A stretch of DNA of 64,000 bases from Rhodothalassiaceae bacterium (GTDB taxonomy: Bacteria; Pseudomonadota; Alphaproteobacteria; Sphingomonadales; Rhodothalassiaceae): contig BPKC01000001.1 of assembly GCA_026004935.1 (NCBI GenBank), positions 2,641,381 through 2,705,380 of the forward strand. The letters run 5' to 3'. The notes below the pieces were generated by a model. The model had not been told where the DNA came from. It ran no database searches and saw only the letters and a list, made by a program, of their open reading frames with translations. Made by a program: the position numbers and the translations under genes. Below are positions 13,562 to 64,000 of this stretch, piece after piece. Each line of letters starts with the position of its first letter. Position 1 is the first letter of the stretch.

Positions 13562-13912
13562 ATGGCCGAGCAGCCACCACCGGTGACGATCACGGAGCGC
13601 GCCGCGGAGCGGCTGAAGGCGCTGATCGCGGCCGAGGGCCGCTCGCCGGACGAGCTCGCCTTCCGCGTCGGCGTCCAGGGCGGCGGCTGCGCCGGGTTCT
13701 CGTACCAGTTCGATCTCGTCGAGAAGGGTGAGCCGGATGACATCGAGACCGTCCAGCACGGCGTGCGCGTGCTGGTGGACGGCCTGTCTCTGCTCTACCT
13801 CCTGGGCAGCCGGATCGACTTCGTGGAGGACCTGATCGGCGCCTCCTTCCGCGTCACGAACCCGAACGCCCAGTCGTCCTGCGGCTGCGGGACGAGCTTC
13901 TCGCTCGCCTGA
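13562..13912 (+). CDS. erpA: Iron-sulfur cluster insertion protein ErpA
   Basis: A-type Fe-S carrier that delivers clusters to apo-proteins. It has 116 residues with the three conserved cysteines: C43 in GGGCAGFSYQF and C107/C109 in SSCGCGTSFSL. The VLVDGLSLLYLLGSRIDFVEDL segment is typical of ErpA/IscA. The start at 13562 follows AGGAAGG. Synteny with dgt-argS in other alphaproteobacteria supports ErpA over IscA, although here the two are separated by the receptor/chelatase genes. It is convergent with tolC. Confidence 0.92.
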   Translation: MAEQPPPVTITERAAERLKALIAAEGRSPDELAFRVGVQGGGCAGFSYQFDLVEKGEPDDIETVQHGVRVLVDGLSLLYLLGSRIDFVEDLIGASFRVTNPNAQSSCGCGTSFSLA

Positions 13913-54587: not shown

Positions 54588-55238
54588 TCACCGGCCCGCC
54601 GCCGGCCCGAGCTGCACGGGACGCAGGTAGCACGGCTCGGGCGGCCGGGCGGGCGGATCCGCCGTCCACAGAAGTCGCGCGGCGGCATCCAGACGCGGGG
54701 CCATCGGCACCCTGAGGCGGGCCGGAAGCTCTCCCGCCTCCTCGCCTTCCGCCGCCACGACGAGAGGCAGGTCCCCGGCTGCGCGCGCAAGGTCCCCGGC
54801 CGCGCCCCAGGCGACATCCTCCGGCAATCGGGCCGCGGGCGCCGACGGGCCGTGCCAGGCGATCCCGGCCCAGCGGCCGCGGCCCACGGGCAGGGCGACG
54901 AAGACGGGCGCCGCGACTCCTGCGTCCGCGGCGGCTTCGGCCAGCGCCTCGAGCCCGCCGATGCCGAGCGCCGGCACGCCCAGCGCCTGCGCGAGCCCCA
55001 GCACGGCCGAAAGCCCCGCGCGGATGCCGGTGTAGCTTCCGGGGCCGGTGATCGCCGCAACCCGCGTGATCGCGTCCCGGCGGATGCCGTGGGCCGCAAG
55101 CGCTTCGCCGAGGGCCGGGAACAGCCGCTCGACCTGACGCATCGGCGCATCCTCCACATGATGGAAGACGGGCGCATCGGGCCCGCGGTGAAGGGCGAGC
55201 GCGAGCAGCCTGCCGGTCGTGTCGATGGTGAGCAGCAT
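54588..55238 (-). CDS. tsaB: tRNA threonylcarbamoyladenosine biosynthesis protein TsaB
   Basis: Non-catalytic partner of TsaD in the t6A37 tRNA modification. 216 residues with the ASKHA-type start MLLTIDTTGRLLALAL, then RLFPALGEALAAHG and the diagnostic VAAITGPGSYTGIRAGLSAV. The C terminus ends with PCYLRPVQLG, as in the family. rimI follows directly. Confidence 0.93.
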   Translation of the reverse strand: MLLTIDTTGRLLALALHRGPDAPVFHHVEDAPMRQVERLFPALGEALAAHGIRRDAITRVAAITGPGSYTGIRAGLSAVLGLAQALGVPALGIGGLEALAEAAADAGVAAPVFVALPVGRGRWAGIAWHGPSAPAARLPEDVAWGAAGDLARAAGDLPLVVAAEGEEAGELPARLRVPMAPRLDAAARLLWTADPPARPPEPCYLRPVQLGPAAGR

Positions 55239-55286
55239 GGACGCTCCCGTCCCCTTCCCCGACCGCGTGCATCCGGCGCGCGGGCG

Positions 55287-55880
55287 TCAGAGAATCCGGC
55301 AGGCCTCGTCGAACGCGAGCCGTGGCGAGCGCGGGAAGAGCCGCTTCTCGCTGCCGTAGCCGAGGCAGCACAGGAAGTTCACCCTGATGCGGCCGTCGGG
55401 GAAGAATTCCCGGTTGACGCCGTCCTTGTCGAAACCGCTCATGGGCCCGCAGTCGAGCCCGAGCGCCCGCGCCGCCATGATCAGATAGGCGCCCTGGAGC
55501 GTGCCGTTGCGAAACGCCGTCTCCTCGGCCAGCTCAGGCGAGGAGGTGAACCAGCTCTGCGCTTCGGGATTGTGCGGGAAGAGCCGGGGCAGCAGCTCGT
55601 AGAAGCGGGTGTCGTAGCCGATGACCGCCACCACCGGCGCCGTCATCGCCTTCTCCACATTGCCGGACATCAGGTGGGGCTTCAGGCGCTCCTTCGCCTC
55701 CCGGCTCTTCAGGAACAGGAAGCGCGCGGGCTGGCAGTTGGCGCTGGTCGGCCCCCATTTGAGAAGGTCGTAGAGCTGATGTAGGGTCTCGTCATCCACA
55801 GGCCGGTCCTGCCAGGCGTTGTAGGACCGCGCCTTGCGGAACAGCACATCGAGAGCCTCGTCGTCCAATGGCCTGCCCAC
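55287..55880 (-). CDS. RutE/HadB-like nitroreductase family (malonic semialdehyde reductase)
   Basis: FMN-dependent oxidoreductase of 197 residues, close to the 196 of E. coli RutE. It begins with [20 protein letters not shown] and has the motifs [18 protein letters not shown] and [12 protein letters not shown]. RutE reduces malonic semialdehyde to 3-hydroxypropionate in pyrimidine breakdown, but no rut genes are near, so the role here is open. GTG 55880 has GGGAG upstream; an ATG at 55919 extends the N terminus. The 5' end faces the polysaccharide deacetylase gene. Confidence 0.85.
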
Positions 55881-57045
55881 CGCGTCTCTCCCTTCATCCT
55901 CGGCCTTCACGGCGCGCATGCGCCCGACGGCGGGTTATAGGGCGGCGCATCCCCTCTCGCCAAGCCGCCGCGGCGGCGGTGGCGATCGCGGCGGTGATCC
56001 TGGTCGCGCTCATCACCCGGCCGGCCGCGGCGATGGCGGCGCGCTGCCCGGCGGGCGCAGATGCGGGGCCGGCGGAGGCGGTGATCCTGCTCTACCACCG
56101 CTTCGGCGAGGACGACGTCCCCAGCACGAACATCCGCATGGAGCAGTTCGCCGAACACGTCCGCCTCCTCAAGGAGGGCGGCTACCATGTGATGGACCTC
56201 GAGGCGCTGGTGGACGCCTGGATCGCCGGCTGCGCGCTGCCGGCGCGCACGGTCGCGATCACGGTCGACGACGCCTACCGCTCCTTTGCGGAGCGCGGCT
56301 GGCCGCTCTTCAAGGCGGCGGGCTTTCCCGTCACCCTCTTCGTGTCCACGGATGCGGCGGACGAGGGCGGCGGGCGCATGCTGGACTGGGACGGTATCCG
56401 GCGTCTCGTGCGCGAGGGGGTGAAGATCGGTCACCATTCGGCCGCGCATGCGCACATGATCGAGACGGGTGTCGAGGCGGCGCGCGCCGACATCGCCCGG
56501 GCGAACGCGCGTTTTGCGGCCGAGCTCGGCTTCGTGCCGAAGCTCTTCGCGTATCCTTACGGCGAATACGATCGCGCGCTCGCGGCCCTGGTGAAGGAGA
56601 TGGGCTTCAAGGCGGCCTTGGCGCAATTCTCCTCGGTGCTGGGCCCCGGCGAGGACCGCTTCGCGCTGCCGCGCTTTGCGTTGAACGAGCATTACGGCAC
56701 GCCCGAGCGGCTGCGCGTCGTGCTGGCGGCCCGCGCCTTTCCGCTCGCCGGGCCGCAGGCCGTGGACCCGCGCGATCCGGTGGTGGAGCCGGCCGCCAAT
56801 CCGCCGCGCCTTAAGGTGCGGCTGGCGCATCCGCTTGCGGGTCTGGCCCGTCTCGCCTGCTACGCCAGCCACGAGGGAGCGATCCCCCTCGAGGTGGCGC
56901 CGGCGATGCGACGGCTTTCACGGCGCGGCCGAGCCGGCCGATGCCGCCCGGGCGCCAGCGCATCAACTGCACCCTGCCGCACCCGGACGGCGGCTGGTAC
57001 TGGCTCGGCCGCTTCTTCTACGTCCCGGGCGCAACATCCGAATAG
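55868..57045 (+). pseudogene. Polysaccharide deacetylase, apparent 3' frameshift
   Basis: NodB-type deacetylase. A signal/anchor (AAVAIAAVILVALI) is followed by VILLYHRFGEDDVPSTNIRM, the metal Asp motif VAITVDDAYRSF and the His motif GHHSAAHAHMIE; FAYPYGEYDRAL follows. The frame is intact to about 56905. There the conserved-looking end (RQRINCTLPHPDGGWYWLGR, then FFYVPGATSE and TAG at 57043-57045) continues in the -1 frame. The original frame instead reads low-complexity sequence to 57235, into the convergent gene. One missing G near 56902 would explain it. The start is also uncertain (ATG 55868 or GTG 55979). Active if the tail is dispensable. Confidence 0.7.
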
Positions 57046-57147
57046 CGGGAGGCGGGCGAATGCGCCGCCTTCCGCCCGGCCCATCCCGGAAACCCGTGCA
57101 TCCGGCCGTTTCGCCGCCGGCGGGAAGATGTGGTCCCCTCTTGCGCC

Positions 57148-57660
57148 TCATCCACCCTTCGGGATGTATTGCACCTGTCCGTCCGGCTGGATGACGAGAA
57201 AGCCGATCAGCTTGTCGTCCTCGAAGACGGCGTAGACGTAGCCTCCTTGCGGGGTCTGCATCAGGAACTGCACGGTAACCCGCGACTTGCTCCCGCTGTC
57301 AGCCAGGACGCCCGCATCGCCCGTCTCGGCCTGTCGCGCGAGGGGAAGCGCGAGAATCGCGCTCCGTCCCGTATCAAGCAGCGTGACGACCAGCACGCCA
57401 TTGCCCGTTCCCGCACGCAACAGACGCAGAGTTGCGGGCGGCCGGTCGAGCTGCAGGGTATAGACGTCAACCCCCGCCTGTTCACCGGCGAAGTGGAATG
57501 CGAGGCGCTTGCCGGGTGCGACGACCGGCTGTGCGCCGGCGAAGCGGACATGCCCGGAAGCGAAGGCGAAGGCCGCTGTCGCCGCCAGAACCATGACCGC
57601 GACCCGCCAGGCGGACATCGCCGCGACCTTGCGCCCTGTCCTGCCGAAGGACCTGAACAT
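57148..57660 (-). CDS. Hypothetical exported protein under duplicated leader A
   Basis: 170 residues. A short basic N terminus precedes a hydrophobic segment (AWRVAVMVLAATAAFAFASG), either a signal peptide or an anchor. The rest looks beta-rich (LAFHFAGEQAGVDVYTLQL, GNGVLVVTLLDTGRSAILAL, VTVQFLMQTPQGGYVYAVF). There is no Cys. I do not recognise the family. ATG 57660 has GGGAG nine bases upstream. Its upstream ~203 bp are a near copy of those before the Cys-rich peptide gene at 61417-61563, so the two are probably co-regulated. Confidence 0.7.
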   Translation of the reverse strand: MFRSFGRTGRKVAAMSAWRVAVMVLAATAAFAFASGHVRFAGAQPVVAPGKRLAFHFAGEQAGVDVYTLQLDRPPATLRLLRAGTGNGVLVVTLLDTGRSAILALPLARQAETGDAGVLADSGSKSRVTVQFLMQTPQGGYVYAVFEDDKLIGFLVIQPDGQVQYIPKGG

Positions 57661-57681
57661 GACGCATTGCTCCCATCGCTT

Positions 57682-57884
57682 TCCTGCCCCCAAGGTGATC
57701 TCCGATCGCGGCCCCGTGCACGCAACCGGTCACCCGCACACCGGCCTGGCCGCCGGTGCATTCAGCCTGACTCGGATGAAAAGCTCTCGTCAAGAGAGTG
57801 TCCGATCACAATTGCGTGAGCGATAGATGCAACCTCACGCAATCGGCCGCGCGCGGCGCGCCGCGAGGCGCCCCGGATGCCGGC
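57682..57884 (-). promoter_or_regulatory. Duplicated leader, copy A
   Basis: About 203 bp, roughly 93 % identical by eye (about 14 mismatches, no net indel) to 61585-61787. It ends 22 bases before the start codon of the 170-residue gene. It contains the perfect inverted repeat ATTGCGTGAG/CTCACGCAAT (57811-57820 and 57834-57843) with a 13-base spacer. A second hairpin, CACCGGC/GCCGGTG, lies nearer the gene. Confidence 0.75.
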
Positions 57885-57957
57885 AGTTGGCACGCGCGAC
57901 GCCCGCCGACAAGCCCGTGTCTCGGCCGCCGGCGCGGCGCAACGGCTCGCCGCTTCG

Positions 57958-59283
57958 TCACTCGAACCGCAGGGCCTCCGCCGGCTGCAGCCGCGCGGCG
58001 CGGCGGGCGGGATAGAGGCCAGCCGCCAGCCCCGTCACGAGCGCGCAGCCGATGGCCGCCAGGATCCAGATCGGCGTGATGGCCGCTTCGGATGCCGCAA
58101 GCCGGATCAGCGGCAGAAGCAGAAGCGCGGCTGCCAGCCCCATGAGAGCACCCCCCAGCGCCAGAATGAGTACCTCGACCAGAAACTGGTCGCGGATGTC
58201 GCGCCGGCGGGCTCCGAGCGCCATTCGGAGGCCGATTTCCCGGGTGCGCTCCGTGACCGCGACCAGCATGATGTTGGCGATCCCGACGCTGCCGACGAAC
58301 AGGCTGATCGCGGCGATGAGAACGAGGCCAAGCTGCACCGAACGCATGATGGTGCGCGCACTGCGGGCGAGCTCGGCGGTGGAAATGATCGAAAACGGCG
58401 CCGGCATGCCGGGCCGCACATGCTTGCGGGCGCGCAGCACCTCGCCCAGCCGGCGCGCGAGCGCATCCAGATCCGCCCCCTGCGGGAAGCGTACCGCGAT
58501 GCTGTCCACCGCATCCGGACGCACGCCGCTGCGGCGCAGATAGCGCCGGATGGTGGACAGCGGCATCAGAACCTGGTCGTCCGGATTGCCGAGAAGGCTC
58601 TGGCCGCGGCGCGCGAACACGCCGACGACGATGAAGGGCAGGCCCGCGATGCGCAGCGTCTCGCCCAGCGCGGAAGCGTCGGGAAACAGGCGCCGGGCGA
58701 CCTCGGCACCCAGCACCAGCACCCGCGCCGCACGGCGTTCGTCTCCTTCGTCGAGAAGCCGGCCGGCGGCGCGCTTCGCCCTCGTCAGGCGCTGATGGGC
58801 GGGGGGCGCAGCGATGATCGTCGTCGTCCAGCTGCGTCCTCCCGCCACCAGAGTTGCCGTCGTCTGGATCCGGGGCACGACGAAGAGAGCTTCAGGAAAG
58901 GCGCGGGCGATCGCATCGGCGTCCGACAGCCGCAGATCGCCGGGCAGCCGGCCGCCAGAGCGCTCGGGCACGGCGAGGATGATCAGCATCTCACCCCCCA
59001 TGTCGGAAAGGCCGCGAGCCGTCGAACGGGTCGCTGCTTCACCCAGCGCCGCGACCAGCAGGATCGACGCGACGCCGATGGCGACGCCCGAGACCGTGAG
59101 CAGCGAGCGCAGCGGCCAGCGGCGCACGGCCTCCAGCGCGGAGCGTAGAGCCATCACGAGCCGCGCGGGCAGGCCCAGCCTTTCCAAGACGAACAGAAGC
59201 GCATCAAGGCGGCCGTCCACGGCAGCAGTGCTACGCATGGGGTCGGGCGGCTTCGTTGCGGATGCGTCGGCCTCAGCCGTCAT
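57958..59283 (-). CDS. MacB/FtsX-type ABC permease without ATPase domain
   Basis: 441 residues. An N-terminal helix (RSLLTVSGVAIGVASILLVA) is followed by a MacB-type periplasmic domain, then three C-terminal helices of the FtsX fold (LGLVLIAAISLFVGSVGIAN, MLVAVTERTREIGLRMALGA, ending ARLQPAEALRFE). E. coli MacB fuses an ATPase to this part; relatives encode it separately. Neither form is visible in this window, so the energy source is missing locally. It overlaps the adaptor gene by 11 bases, which supports a functional pair. Substrate: possibly the Cys-rich peptide or an envelope lipid/lipoprotein. Confidence 0.88.
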   Translation of the reverse strand: MTAEADASATKPPDPMRSTAAVDGRLDALLFVLERLGLPARLVMALRSALEAVRRWPLRSLLTVSGVAIGVASILLVAALGEAATRSTARGLSDMGGEMLIILAVPERSGGRLPGDLRLSDADAIARAFPEALFVVPRIQTTATLVAGGRSWTTTIIAAPPAHQRLTRAKRAAGRLLDEGDERRAARVLVLGAEVARRLFPDASALGETLRIAGLPFIVVGVFARRGQSLLGNPDDQVLMPLSTIRRYLRRSGVRPDAVDSIAVRFPQGADLDALARRLGEVLRARKHVRPGMPAPFSIISTAELARSARTIMRSVQLGLVLIAAISLFVGSVGIANIMLVAVTERTREIGLRMALGARRRDIRDQFLVEVLILALGGALMGLAAALLLLPLIRLAASEAAITPIWILAAIGCALVTGLAAGLYPARRAARLQPAEALRFE

Positions 59284-60649
59284 CGCCGGCCTCCCCGCTT
59301 CCGATCACGACCGCATCGCCCGGCTTGATGTCGCCGCCACGGATTTCGGCGAATTGCTCACCGACAAGGCCCAGGCGCACGGGCACCGGTGTCGCGATGC
59401 GGTCTCCGGCGAAGAGCACATGGACCGTGGCGGTTCCCTCCGTTTTTTCCGGCCCGGTACTGTCGTCGCGCGAGAGATCCGCCACGGCACGCTGGATGCG
59501 CTCGGCTTCCTCCCGGCTCACGATCCGGATGCTCACCTTCGGCAACAGAGCTTTCGCCTGCGTCCCCTGGCCCGGCCGCCAGGTAAGAGCGGCGAGCGGC
59601 ACGCGCAGGACGCGCTCGGCGTGGTCAACCACGATCTGGACATCGGCCGTCATGCCGGGCAGCAGACGCCCATCCGCATTGTCCACATCCACGAGCACGG
59701 GGTAGGTGACGAGGCCTTCCCTCACCTGCGCAGCGGGGCGGATCGTGGCGACGACGCCCGTGAACGTCCGCTGCGGCCAGGCGTCGACCGCAAAGCGCAC
59801 GGGCTGGCCGGGGGTGACCGCGCCGATGTCCGCTTCGGTCACGTCCACGACGAGGCGCAGCTTCGCGAGATCCGCGGCGATGGCGAACAGCGTCTGGGCC
59901 TGGAAGGCCGAGACCACGGTCTGCCCGGGTGCGACCCGCCGGTCGATCACGACGCCGTCGATGGGCGCGCGGATGACGGTCTTGTCGAGCAGCCGACGGG
60001 CGTTCTTCAGCGCCGCCTCAAGGCCGGGGATCCGCGCCGCCTGCGCATCCCGCTCCGCAAGCGCGATCGCGTGTTCGGCCCGCGCCCGCTCCAGCGCCGT
60101 CATGGCGTCGTCGAGCGCCTGTTCGGAGACATGGCCGTTCACGGCAAGCGCCTGCGCGCGCTTTGCGTCCCGCTCCGCCCGCGCGAGGGCGAGAGTGGCG
60201 AGCCTGACGCGGCCTTCGCGCTGACGCAGTTCGGCGCGGGCGGCCGCAAGTGCGGCTTGTGCGCGCGCGACCTCGGCCGCAAAAGGAGCCGGGTCGATCT
60301 GGGCGAGCGGATCGCCGGCATGCACCTGCGCACCGAAGTCAACATGGACGGCGGCAACGGTGCCCGAGATTTCGGCACCGACGTCGACCGAATCGCGCGC
60401 CTCGATGCGCCCGACCGCGCGCACGAGGCGCTCGACCGATCCGACGTCGGCATGCGCGAGGCGATAGGCCGGCCCGTCGCCCGGGCCCATCATGAACAGG
60501 AAGGCCGCCGCGCCAAGGATGACGGGGACGGCAAGCACCCACAGCAGAATACGGCGGCGCCGACGCGGCCTGCTCGAGACCGGTGCAGCCGCAGACCTGG
60601 TCGCACCACCACCGTCGGTCTCAGCCTCGGCCTTGCTCCGTTCTGCCAC
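59273..60649 (-). CDS. MacA/HlyD-like periplasmic adaptor
   Basis: 458 residues from GTG 60649. A cytoplasmic basic stretch (SSRPRRRRRILLW) precedes one membrane helix (VLAVPVILGAAAFLFMM). The split lipoyl domain appears as VGAEISGTVAAVHVDFGAQV and VIRAPIDGVVIDRRVAPGQT, separated by a long coiled-coil hairpin (about 110-225). A beta-barrel and a C-terminal MacA-type domain follow. Together with the FtsX-type permease it forms a MacAB-like pair and would need a TolC-like channel. Confidence 0.9.
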   Translation of the reverse strand: MAERSKAEAETDGGGATRSAAAPVSSRPRRRRRILLWVLAVPVILGAAAFLFMMGPGDGPAYRLAHADVGSVERLVRAVGRIEARDSVDVGAEISGTVAAVHVDFGAQVHAGDPLAQIDPAPFAAEVARAQAALAAARAELRQREGRVRLATLALARAERDAKRAQALAVNGHVSEQALDDAMTALERARAEHAIALAERDAQAARIPGLEAALKNARRLLDKTVIRAPIDGVVIDRRVAPGQTVVSAFQAQTLFAIAADLAKLRLVVDVTEADIGAVTPGQPVRFAVDAWPQRTFTGVVATIRPAAQVREGLVTYPVLVDVDNADGRLLPGMTADVQIVVDHAERVLRVPLAALTWRPGQGTQAKALLPKVSIRIVSREEAERIQRAVADLSRDDSTGPEKTEGTATVHVLFAGDRIATPVPVRLGLVGEQFAEIRGGDIKPGDAVVIGSGEAGDDG

Positions 60650-60680
60650 GGTCGCCCCCCTGTCCCGGCCGGTGGTCCCC

Positions 60681-61283
60681 TCAGGGCTCGTCCGCCCCTC
60701 TGCCGCCCGTCCGCTGCGTCCCGTCACCGCCGGCCGGCACCATCTCCACCGTACCGATGGTGACATCGAGCGGAAGCGCGGGATGATGCATCGCCGCATT
60801 GCCCGTCCAGCGACGTCGATCGAAACCCTCTTCGGGTTGCAGGCGCATCACGATCTGACCCTCTTCCGCACGACCAAGAGAGAGCGTCAGCTCACCGTCC
60901 CCGAGCTCGCAGGAGAGCGACGTGACGTATTTGCCCGCGTCATCCTTGGCCGCGCATCGGCGCAATTTCGTGCCGTTCTTTTCGAGAAACAGTTCGTAGT
61001 TCAGCGACTCGGACGTGCCGAGCGGAAGGTTCCCGTTGCCCCCCGTCGATTCAGTCCTGGGGAAGATGCGGACGGAAATGCGTCCATCCTCGGCGGCCGG
61101 CTTCATGCGAAGATGCCAAAGGCTTTCGCCTTCCGGCAGCCGGCCTTGCCCGCCCCCGCCTGTCGGGTGCTCCGAATCCGGGGCTTGCCCGCATGCCGTG
61201 GTCAACAGGCACCCCAGGGCAGCTGCGGCCATGGTCAGCGGCCGGCGGCGGCCGAACCGGGAAGCGATGCATGATCGCTCCAT
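60681..61283 (-). CDS. Hypothetical lipoprotein-like protein
   Basis: 200 residues from ATG 61283, which has GGAGGG seven bases upstream. A basic N terminus (SRFGRRRPL) and hydrophobic stretch lead to CLLTTACGQ, a possible lipobox with Thr at -3. The mature part is beta-like (GRISVRIFPRTES, SLNYELFLEKNGTKLRRC, GELTLSLGRAEEGQIVMRLQ) with two further Cys (in KLRRC and SLSC). I do not recognise it. It lies between the Cys-rich peptide gene and the MacA-like gene, 31 bases before the latter, so it may be an accessory envelope factor of that system. Confidence 0.68.
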   Translation of the reverse strand: MERSCIASRFGRRRPLTMAAAALGCLLTTACGQAPDSEHPTGGGGQGRLPEGESLWHLRMKPAAEDGRISVRIFPRTESTGGNGNLPLGTSESLNYELFLEKNGTKLRRCAAKDDAGKYVTSLSCELGDGELTLSLGRAEEGQIVMRLQPEEGFDRRRWTGNAAMHHPALPLDVTIGTVEMVPAGGDGTQRTGGRGADEP

Positions 61284-61365
61284 ATTCAAGCCCTCCATGC
61301 CGCTCAGTTATATCGGTCTGTTACTCCTGTCAAGACCTGATTGTCTGTTCGACGGGTAATGAAGA

Positions 61366-61391
61366 GGGCGGCACCGCGGCCGGTGCCGCCC
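61366..61391 (-). terminator. Hairpin after the Cys-rich peptide gene
   Basis: A perfect 11-bp stem (GGGCGGCACCG/CGGTGCCGCCC, 4-base loop) starts 26 bases after the peptide stop and is followed on the minus strand by TCTTCATT. It could be a partial terminator, reducing transcription of the downstream genes relative to the peptide. Confidence 0.55.
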
Positions 61392-61416
61392 TCCCCATCT
61401 TGAACCTGCACGCCGT

Positions 61417-61563
61417 TCATCTGATCACCAGGCAGACGCAGGTGTCAGTGACACACACGCAGATTTCCACGCCGGCCTTTGCGACCTCGGCAGTTGCCAG
61501 ATTCGCCAGCAATATCGCGGCAGCTGCCGCCGGCATCAGAAACCGCCTCGCAAACTTCGCCAT
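61417..61563 (-). CDS. Small secreted Cys-rich peptide, unrecognised
   Basis: 48 residues, below most gene-finder limits. Support: ATG 61563 with GGAGGG eight bases upstream; a clear export signal (MAKFARRF, then PAAAAAILLANLATA); and a terminator-like hairpin after the stop. The likely mature part is about 18-23 residues and carries the core CVCVTDTCVC: two CxC pairs around VTDT. This could form a disulfide-bonded hairpin or bind a metal. It heads a run with a lipoprotein-like gene and MacA/FtsX-type genes, suggesting an exported or sensed peptide. No maturation enzyme is nearby. It shares its ~203-bp leader with the gene at 57148-57660. Confidence 0.72.
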   Translation of the reverse strand: MAKFARRFLMPAAAAAILLANLATAEVAKAGVEICVCVTDTCVCLVIR

Positions 61564-61584
61564 GATTTGGTCCCTCCGTTACTC

Positions 61585-61787
61585 TCCTGCCCCCAAGGTG
61601 ATCTCCGGTTGCGGCCCCGTGCGCGCAACCGGTCACCCGCACACCGGCCTGGCCGCCGGTGCACGCAGCCTGACTCGGATGAAAAGCTCTCGTCGAGAGA
61701 GTGACAGATCACGATTGCGTGAGCGATAGATGCAATCTCACGCAATCGGCCGCGCGCGGCGCGGCACGGGACGCCCCGGATGCCGGC
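61585..61787 (-). promoter_or_regulatory. Duplicated leader, copy B
   Basis: The second copy of the ~203-bp leader, ending 22 bases before the Cys-rich peptide start. The inverted repeat is longer here: CGATTGCGTGAG/CTCACGCAATCG is perfect over 12 bp (61712-61723 and 61737-61748). The 13-base spacer differs from copy A at one position. CTCTCG/CGAGAG (61687-61692 and 61694-61699) forms another small dyad. Confidence 0.75.
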
Positions 61788-61884
61788 GGGAGGCTCTCTC
61801 CATGGACGGCCTTCGCCGGCCTGACGGGCGCCCCCCATCGGCGGTGGAGAGGCTCACGGCCGTGGTGATGAGCTCGGCCTTCCG

Positions 61885-62449
61885 CTGGGCCCGCCGGTCT
61901 GGCCGGCAGGTGACGCTCTCTTTTTCGTCATTCGCCGCGAAGGCGGCGAATCCAGCCGCCACCGGGGACGAATCCAAGCGCTTGCGGCTGCCCCAGCATC
62001 CAGCTGGACCCGCCGGTCAAGCCGGCGGGTGACGATTGAGGGTGCGCACCGGCGCATGACGCTTTCCCCTTTCGTCGTTCGCCGGCTTGACCGGCGAACC
62101 CATGCGGCGGTGATGGCAGCCCCGGGGCCTGTGACGGGCTCCACCTTCGGCTGGACCCGCCGGTCAAGCCGGCGGGTGACGATTTTTCCTCGTCATTCGC
62201 CACGAAAGCGGCGAATCCAGCAGCAGCCATGCATAGAAAAGCCGGCGCCGGAAATCGCCCCCGCTCGCGCATGGGCCCGCCGGTTCTGGCCGGCGGGTGA
62301 CGATTGAGGGTGCGCACCGGCGCATGACGCTTTCCCCTTTCGTCGTTCGCCGGCTTGACCGGCGAACCCATGCGGCGGTGATGGCAGCCCCGGGGCCTGT
62401 GACGGGCTCCACCTTCGGCTGGACCCGCCGGTCAAGCCGGCGGGTGACG
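61885..62449. repeat. REPIN-like repeat cluster 3
   Basis: Four elements: 61925-62034 (110 bp), 62072-62181 (110 bp), 62190-62302 (113 bp) and 62340-62449 (110 bp). A right-hand half-element lies at about 61889-61914. Elements 2 and 4 are near-identical and sit in a larger direct repeat of about 150 bp starting at 62032 and 62300, offset 268. Each element has inverted REP-like ends; the right end is commonly CCGCCGGTCAAGCCGGCGG plus TGACG. The remaining sequence from 61788 to 62657 has no credible gene. Confidence 0.8.
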
Positions 62450-62549
62450 AGAAAAGGGGGGCGGCCCGGCCGAGGCGCGGTTCGCGAAGGGAAGCGCAGG
62501 TGGGGGGCAGGACGGTTTTCGGCAACCGGTCCGCGTTCGCCTGCCGACC

Positions 62550-62626
62550 GACCGATCACCGATCACCGACCACCAATCACCGATCACCGATCACTGATGA
62601 CCGATGACCGATAACCGATGACCGAT
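62550..62626. repeat. Heptad tract, 11 units (SACCGAT)
   Basis: Exactly eleven 7-base units in perfect register: the first base varies (G, C or A), ACCGAT is mostly kept, with variants ACCGAC, ACCAAT and ACTGAT. It lies about 30 bases beyond the stop of the glutathione S-transferase gene. Confidence 0.85.
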
Positions 62627-62657
62627 ACGACGCCCGCTTCGCGCCGGCGGCGCCGGC

Positions 62658-63320
62658 CTAGCGCTGGAGCAGCTTCTGCGCGGCCTTGACGGCTTCCTCC
62701 TCGCTCAGGTTGCGCGGCGGGATCTGGATGCCGCGCTGGACGGCGGGCCGCGCGCCGATGCGCTCCGCCCAGGCCTTCAGATTCGGCAGATCGTCGATGC
62801 TGACCCCCGCCCACTCGTGCGCCCGCACCCAGCACCAGTTCGCGATGTCGGCGATGGAATACTCGTCCACGAGATAGTCGCGCCCGGCAAGCTGGCGGTC
62901 GAGGACGGTATAGAGCCGCTTCGTCTCGTTCTGATAGCGGGCGATGACCGAGGGGATCTTCTCCGGAAAATACCGGTAGAAGACGTTCGCCTGACCCTGC
63001 ATGGGCCCGACACCCGCCATCTGGAACATCAGCCACTGGATGACGCGCGAGCGGCCCTTTTCCTCCTTCGGCAGCAGCCTGCCGGTCTTCTCCGCCAGAT
63101 AGAGCATGATCGCGCCGGACTCGAAGACGTTGAAGTCGTCATTGTCATGATCGACGATGGCGGGGATCCGGCCGTTGGGATTGATCTTGAGGAACCACTC
63201 CTCCTTCTGCTCGCCCTTCATCAGGTCCAGCACCCGCACCTCGTAGGGCAGGCCGATCTCCTCCAGCATCACCGAGATCTTGTAGCCGTTCGGCGTGGGT
63301 GCGGTATAAAGCGTGATCAT
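62658..63320 (-). CDS. Glutathione S-transferase family protein (YfcG/YghU-like)
   Basis: 220 residues. The thioredoxin-like domain has [20 protein letters not shown], where TPNG replaces a Cys/Ser catalytic motif, as in Nu-class YfcG disulfide reductases. [15 protein letters not shown] and [19 protein letters not shown] form the GSH site. The helical domain contains [20 protein letters not shown] and [12 protein letters not shown]. Start 63320 has GGGAGAG upstream. It follows acs on the same strand after about 105 bases. The substrate is unknown. Confidence 0.9.
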
Positions 63321-63425
63321 GTGGTCTCTCCCGTGCTGCGGTTCATGGCGCACGCCCGTCCAAGGAGGCTGCGCCTTGCTTTCCGGCTCTCTTCCTCTTG
63401 CCGGCGATCTCCCGGGCGCCGCGCC

Positions 63426-64000
<575 letters not shown>

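Follow-up and report, generated by a model that had tools for sequence, protein, structure and literature searches.

The 48-residue open reading frame (ORF) listed as complement(61417..61563) in the 64,000-nt window, by which the whole stretch of DNA analysed is meant, lies behind an upstream region of about 180 nt which, as judged from the sequence, is reused before two other genes, a feature that the original prediction had missed. This shared leader is the new point of the analysis and suggests a one-genome peptide regulon. Because the leader also precedes a graspetide-type precursor and an exported-looking protein of 170 aa, the peptide most likely belongs to a co-regulated extracytoplasmic set, with a role in competition or signalling as the most likely one for it. 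The best explanation, which is put forward tentatively and at close to even confidence, is that of a separately transcribed, Sec-exported hairpin peptide with two disulfides that forms part of this set. A bolder version is considered unlikely: a new regulon in which one leader, made up of an activator site and a structured 5'UTR that matches no Rfam family, drives both a Sec-exported, non-cationic two-disulfide hairpin peptide and an ATP-grasp-modified peptide, bringing two unrelated classes under one signal. If expressed, the product would bring to bacteria a Cys layout (C-x-C-x4-C-x-C) that, to our knowledge, is otherwise known only from animal defence peptides, minus their charge. The leader also offers a handle, as finding its signal or regulator would allow the whole peptide set to be induced and isolated. 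The features discussed are collected in Table 1.

Table 1. Coordinates of the peptide ORF, the leader copies and the neighbouring features (window positions unless a genome, contig or locus is given).
Feature	Position	Strand	Description
48-aa peptide ORF	61417..61563	-	Sec-like signal, then GVEICVCVTDTCVCLVIR
Shine-Dalgarno GGAGG	61573..61577	-	Nine bases 5' of the peptide ATG; from sequence
13-nt palindrome GTGTCACTGACAC	61442..61454	-	Encodes VTDT between the CxC pairs; pairs in the predicted fold
Leader copy 1	61582..61763	-	Operator, promoter region and 5'UTR (two hairpins predicted); GGGGGCAGGA block 21 nt 5' of the ATG
Operator-like inverted repeat	61712..61748	-	12-nt arms 61712-61723 and 61737-61748, 13 nt apart, 100% complementary
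Strong hairpin 3' of the peptide gene	61359..61398	-	Terminator-like, T-poor tail; absent from the terminator scan list
Promoter-like TTGACA-15-TATAAC for the downstream operon	61307..61333	-	Pattern search; omitted by the standard scan
Lipoprotein-like protein	60681..61283	-	Lipobox-like LTTAC by eye; no Pfam/NCBIfam match; distant relatives in G002, G003
MacA/HlyD-type adaptor	59273..60649	-	Putative GTG start at 60649; longest ORF from 60799
MacB_PCD + FtsX permease without ATPase domain	57958..59283	-	Pfam/NCBIfam
Leader copy 2	57679..57860	-	94% identical to copy 1 (182 nt); precedes the 170-aa protein
170-aa exported-looking protein (by eye)	57148..57660	-	Behind leader copy 2; no Pfam match
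Leader copy 3	G000:C1:2754801-2754881 and upstream		BLAST and alignment; precedes the 82-aa ORF and ATP-grasp gene
Graspetide-type two-gene cluster	L003:105-1145 + 1232-1480 (G000:C1:2753407-2754782)	-	ATP-grasp maturase and 82-aa precursor-like ORF, behind copy 3

The unbiased evidence for the leader copies comes from BLAST and resampling. A BLAST search with copy 1 matched copy 2 at E 4.8e-47 and copy 3 at E 1.3e-5; a fourth match in the same genome, at C1:259822, was dropped as 36 aligned bases within a 405-aa ORF. The match to copy 3 spans the 5'UTR part of the leader, and when the operator-promoter part alone was used as the query, copy 2 was recovered and copy 3 was not at E 1. Copies 1 and 3 agree at 119/176 aligned bases, and their local alignment score of 83 compares with a maximum of 37 in 1000 Markov resamples. 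Aligned separately against copy 3, the 5'UTR parts scored 70 (maximum on resampling 37) and 64 (maximum 43), above all 2000 resamples, and the operator-promoter parts were weaker, with scores of 28 (reached by 2/2000 resamples) and 36 (reached by none). The ATG lies exactly 21 nt 3' of GGCAGGA in 3/3 copies, and in copy 1 no second ATG is found within 40 nt. The promoter region reads TCGACG in copy 1 and TTGAC in copies 2 and 3. A small hairpin followed by CTTTTC is present at the promoter of copies 1 and 2 (61687-61701; 57784-57798) and is not kept in copy 3.

The operator-like inverted repeat is whole in copy 2 and partial in copy 3, and the pattern GCGTGA-N15-TCACG occurs in 3/3 copies; 0.06 such sites per window would be expected, and two were found, each counted on both strands. 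In the leader RNA structure as drawn, 98.2% of the pair cells over the three sequences hold standard pairs and two pairs show changes in both partners, with shuffles equalling the pairing values in 63/500 cases and sliding of the partners destroying the pairing; covariation in the leader RNA is suggestive only. Folded alone, copies 1, 2 and 3 gave z-scores of -2.2, -1.6 and -0.8, and their stability was reached by 3, 15 and 40 out of 200 shuffles, respectively; copy 3 by itself is no more stable than shuffled sequence, and the first hairpin is missing from its best fold. A search of Rfam over 55000-64000, at E up to 1, returned three weak matches, none at gathering score and none in the leaders. 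The three copies served to build a leader model (R1), whose scores on those same copies are by construction; strict filters, with which weak matches are lost, applied to R1 searches over 40+ genomes, and the order and class samples overlap. R1 found exactly three leader copies in the genome of origin, nine weak matches (E 0.010-0.09) in 195 other genomes of the order, which were presumed to be chance, and none at E 0.01 in 371 other genomes of the class sample. A pattern of the leader core, run across the genome contigs, fitted 67 stretches that were also taken as chance: the GGGGGCAGG block follows within the next 90 bases in none of them, and two have GGAGATC or GGAGGATC alone in that interval.

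The 170-aa protein gave a poor structure model (mean pLDDT 48, modelled with one extra upstream residue) and has a distant paralogue at G000:C1:5701-6231 (26% identity, E 6e-8); of the two paralogues, only the one at 57148-57660 has the leader. Behind copy 3, the 346-aa ATP-grasp protein matches TIGR04187 at E 5.6e-49, which is below the curated cut-off, and PF14398 just above the cut-off. The adjacent 82-aa ORF contains LRDLSEQEMHMIGGAE and has no confident family, its lantibiotic-type matches being sub-threshold (E 0.069 and 0.17); its place beside the maturase gene points to a graspetide-type precursor. The G+C content of the maturase gene is 42% vs 70% in the window, so that this gene was probably acquired, and tblastn at E 1 detected no relative of it in the window. 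The peptide thus shares its leader with a graspetide-type cluster of the same genome; unlike graspetide precursors, it has no ATP-grasp maturase beside it, and a Sec-like signal replaces the RiPP leader.

As for the peptide itself, the coordinates given for a short ORF in the original prediction were exact, whilst its strand, which is minus, had been left unstated. The strong ribosome-binding site and the two CxC pairs around VTDT that had been described are borne out, and the Sec-type signal is predicted: GGAGG is located at 61577-61573, ahead of the ATG at 61563, the N-terminus (MAKFARR, FLMPAAAAAILLANLATA, then AKA/G) fits a Sec signal by a heuristic call only, and the cysteines of the mature tail GVEICVCVTDTCVCLVIR are spaced C-x-C-x4-C-x-C (full translation, MAKFARRFLMPAAAAAILLANLATAEVAKAGVEICVCVTDTCVCLVIR). 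When 119,622 bases of the genome of origin were surveyed, 780 stop-to-stop frames held an ATG or GTG ORF of 30-80 aa, 33 of which were exported-looking by the heuristic; four of these 33 had a Shine-Dalgarno match of at least 5 bases, and a single one, the 48-aa peptide, had four Cys in addition. The chance expectation for a 30-80 aa ORF with a signal-like start, a Shine-Dalgarno match of at least 5 bases and at least four Cys is 0.08 per 64 kb in a Markov-1 model of window composition, and 0.05 per 64 kb with local composition. By itself the Cys core is weaker evidence for the peptide than this combination of features. Elsewhere in the window, one more short frame, on the plus strand near 13626-13835, has the Cys spacing, but no signal-like start was seen there by eye. 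As VTDT is coded by a DNA palindrome, part of the symmetry of the peptide may be a nucleotide feature.

Such numbers bear on the alternative that fares best, namely that there is no functional peptide here, and that a chance or decayed ORF sits behind a duplicated leader of which the leader alone, or nothing, is functional. The low codon score of the ORF (3.2) and its G+C content of 60%, vs 70% in the window, speak against a real gene, and the codon score and the origin of the leader as a local duplicate would suit a chance or decayed frame; against such a frame stand the rarity by chance of a Shine-Dalgarno sequence, signal and four Cys together, and the constant 21-nt spacing from conserved block to ATG in all the leader copies. 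This alternative also draws on the want of a convincing homologue in the collections searched. Seven genomes of the family gave none beyond the genome of origin (other match, E 0.57); that genome was likewise the only convincing one among 396 genomes of the order, with six other matches at E 0.004-0.05, and among 385 genomes of the class, with 43 others at E 0.006-0.5. The best of these (E 0.004 and E 0.006) are at chance level because so many genomes were searched. Plasmids and phages yielded no match, 161 stretches of IMG/VR fitted the peptide pattern with 0 confirmed, and no C-x-C-x4-C-x-C ORF of <150 aa was present in 173 loci (145 in an earlier pass) besides the peptide's own copies. A homologous Cys ORF beside MacA/FtsX genes, for which the original prediction had looked to relatives, was found in none of the genomes searched, and with no homologue in these collections conservation of the Cys pattern cannot be demonstrated. 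Taken together, the absence of a functional peptide is judged unlikely; the ORF is not proven as a gene, and it is a plausible orphan exported Cys-hairpin peptide.

The fold predicted for the tail is in keeping with the favoured reading of an exported hairpin peptide. AlphaFold, run with no alignment, placed strands at residues 32-38 and 41-47 (block mean pLDDT 78 and 73). In this model 13 residues fall in the pLDDT range 70-90 and the overall mean is 59, so that the mature tail is predicted, with moderate confidence, to be a beta-hairpin. From the strand register, ladder disulfides would join C35 to C44 (outer) and C37 to C42 (inner) of the precursor. Foldseek with this model returned no fold match (best E 9.4). 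Searches of Pfam, NCBIfam and PHROG gave zero families for the peptide, and Pfam was empty both with the whole ORF and with the last 23 residues, so that a DUF2946 match is absent. Snake neurotoxins appeared as possible PDB relatives at E 0.68 or worse, with a brief stretch in common, and were treated as chance; the original view that the core belongs to no described family is thus upheld in these databases. Searches of the open-licence PMC literature listed no bacterial CxCx4CxC hairpin peptide.

The spacing C-x-C-x4-C-x-C is that of the protegrins, and the peptide resembles this class in its tail of about 18 residues, its predicted hairpin and its two possible disulfides. At 18 residues, protegrin is too short for the PDB sequence search, which takes no fewer than 20 residues. 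In the available passages of two papers, the protegrins are arginine-rich pig peptides (PMC13001179; PMC4410394). Unlike these cationic peptides, the tail described here has one R, one E and one D (net charge about -1, not cationic) and is bacterial, and homology is not shown. Actinomycesin is a bacterial disulfide-rich defensin that is described, in an excerpt, as similar to invertebrate-type defensins (PMC8819291); its likeness to the peptide, as bacterial and disulfide-rich, is by that description only.

Between the peptide and the export genes lie a hairpin and a promoter-like site. The terminator-like hairpin that had been reported after the peptide is confirmed as a hairpin-forming sequence, with 18-nt arms (61359-61376 and 61381-61398) that are 89% complementary and a regional fold z of -4.9 (0/200 shuffles as stable), but its tail, CUCUUCAUU, is T-poor, for which reason the standard terminator scan leaves it unlisted. 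The TTGACA-15-TATAAC site (61333-61307) is the sole one in the window with at least 11/12 matches at spacings of 15-19; the standard promoter scan, which covers spacings of 16-18, misses it because of its spacing of 15, and lists no minus-strand promoter either within the leader or ahead of the lipoprotein gene. The strong 3' hairpin and the separate downstream promoter-like site together point to a transcription unit of the peptide's own.

The lipoprotein-like, MacA-like and FtsX-type genes of the original prediction do follow the peptide co-directionally on its 3' side, recognized by a lipobox seen by eye, a HlyD/MacA-like adaptor and a MacB_PCD plus FtsX permease. The proposal that they are the peptide's own envelope machinery is not sustained: the hairpin and promoter-like site intervene, a related operon lacks the peptide, and no ABC ATPase was detected in the window by tblastn with two MacB-type ATPases as queries. 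That operon, the one related operon found (in genome G002), has the same order plus an ATPase (lipoprotein-MacA-ATPase-MacB; identities of 28% for the lipoprotein, 38% for MacA and 40% for MacB), and contains no Cys peptide among upstream ORFs of at least 30 aa. Given the intervening elements and this peptide-less operon, the position next to the export genes argues only weakly for a functional link, and service of the peptide by the neighbouring transporter is not shown. Matches to the lipoprotein at E 0.01 occurred in 9/196 genomes of the order, and convincing ones only in the genome of origin, G002 and G003, the E-values of the latter two in one lipoprotein search being by construction; no transporter gene was seen by eye beside the relative in G003. 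The permease gene at 57958-59283 overlaps its own MacA gene, and the G002 operon has the ATPase between the two. A complete MacA-ATPase-MacB set is encoded elsewhere in the genome of origin, at C1:1620382, and also in G004, of the same genus.

A precedent for export of such a molecule is E. coli heat-stable enterotoxin II, which according to excerpts of one study is exported by Sec, receives its disulfides from DsbA and then leaves through MacAB-TolC (PMC5985334), so that on this account a path exists for a small two-disulfide peptide. The peptide shares with that route, as described there, a putative Sec signal, a tiny mature part, two possible disulfides and nearby MacA/MacB-type genes (PMC5985334); in contrast, it has no known-family similarity, appears to form a separate transcription unit and neighbours a permease without an ATPase. 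For the Sec signal and disulfide-capable mature part of MacAB-TolC substrates, the peptide offers a signal called by heuristic and four Cys. A complete MacA and MacB with ATPase is absent beside it, the full set being that at C1:1620382, and it is not kept with the transporter in the one related operon. With these differences in mind, the co-regulated exported peptide would arise as follows. A regulator bound at the inverted repeat would activate a weak leader promoter, giving a transcript that comprises the 5'UTR with its two predicted hairpins and the 48-aa ORF and that would end at the strong hairpin. Sec would carry the product to the periplasm, where cleavage after AKA would leave an 18-residue tail that is predicted to fold as a beta-hairpin and may be locked by the C35-C44 and C37-C42 ladder disulfides. 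The peptide would then act as one member of the extracytoplasmic peptide set in competition or signalling, and the neighbouring MacA/MacB might move it across the outer membrane, as in the E. coli MacAB-TolC case.

The same arrangement can be read as an exported metal-sensing leader peptide of the CutF/CzcI type, in which metal bound by the Cys residues during export would alter the stem-loop and hence the expression of the lipoprotein-MacA-MacB genes. As far as the available passages describe them, CutF and CruR are metal-sensing upstream ORFs (PMC9973294; PMC9426467), with CutF relying on a stem-loop together with its Sec signal and Cys motif, and CzcI preceding an efflux system whilst lacking the proline motif (PMC9973294). 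The outline is parallel, as a small ORF with a Sec-like signal and Cys pairs stands 5' of a strong stem-loop and of envelope export genes, and further matches of the MacA-like protein are to PF16576, the CusB/HlyD domain of Pfam, and to a CzcB/NccB metal-efflux adaptor model of NCBIfam (E 4.4e-15, below its cut-off). The outline fits, but the peptide fails the tested CutF/CruR features: there is no DUF2946, the C-terminus is CLVIR with no proline-rich or RAPP motif, the predicted stem-loop at 61359-61398 does not extend to the lipoprotein Shine-Dalgarno sequence at 61296-61292, and the downstream operon has a promoter-like site of its own. The G002 operon does without such an ORF, the leader is common to unrelated genes, and a metal enzyme was the best match in 0/5 scanned genes. 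Metal sensing is therefore regarded as distinctly unlikely.

CxC pairs are common soft-metal ligands, and a periplasmic metallothionein-like peptide, binding metal through free thiols rather than forming disulfides, might be supposed on that ground; with four Cys only, a hydrophobic and strongly beta-prone tail, and export that would favour disulfides, this is very improbable. Faint indeed is the chance of a cysteine-codon attenuator, in which ribosome pausing at the four Cys codons just 5' of the strong hairpin would change that hairpin: such an ORF needs no signal-like N-terminus, neither the best nor the centroid fold (the two folds considered) contains a competing antiterminator, and the scanned downstream genes are not cysteine genes. 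A type I toxin was also considered; it was set aside since the genes that follow the three copies of the leader are unrelated.

The DNA from 61900 to 62460 is dense in palindromic repeats of the CGCCGGTCAAGCCGGCGGGTGACG type. Within it, 150 nt at 62034 recur at 62302 with 149/150 identical bases, and a run of degenerate ATCACCG units was seen by eye at 62540-62620.
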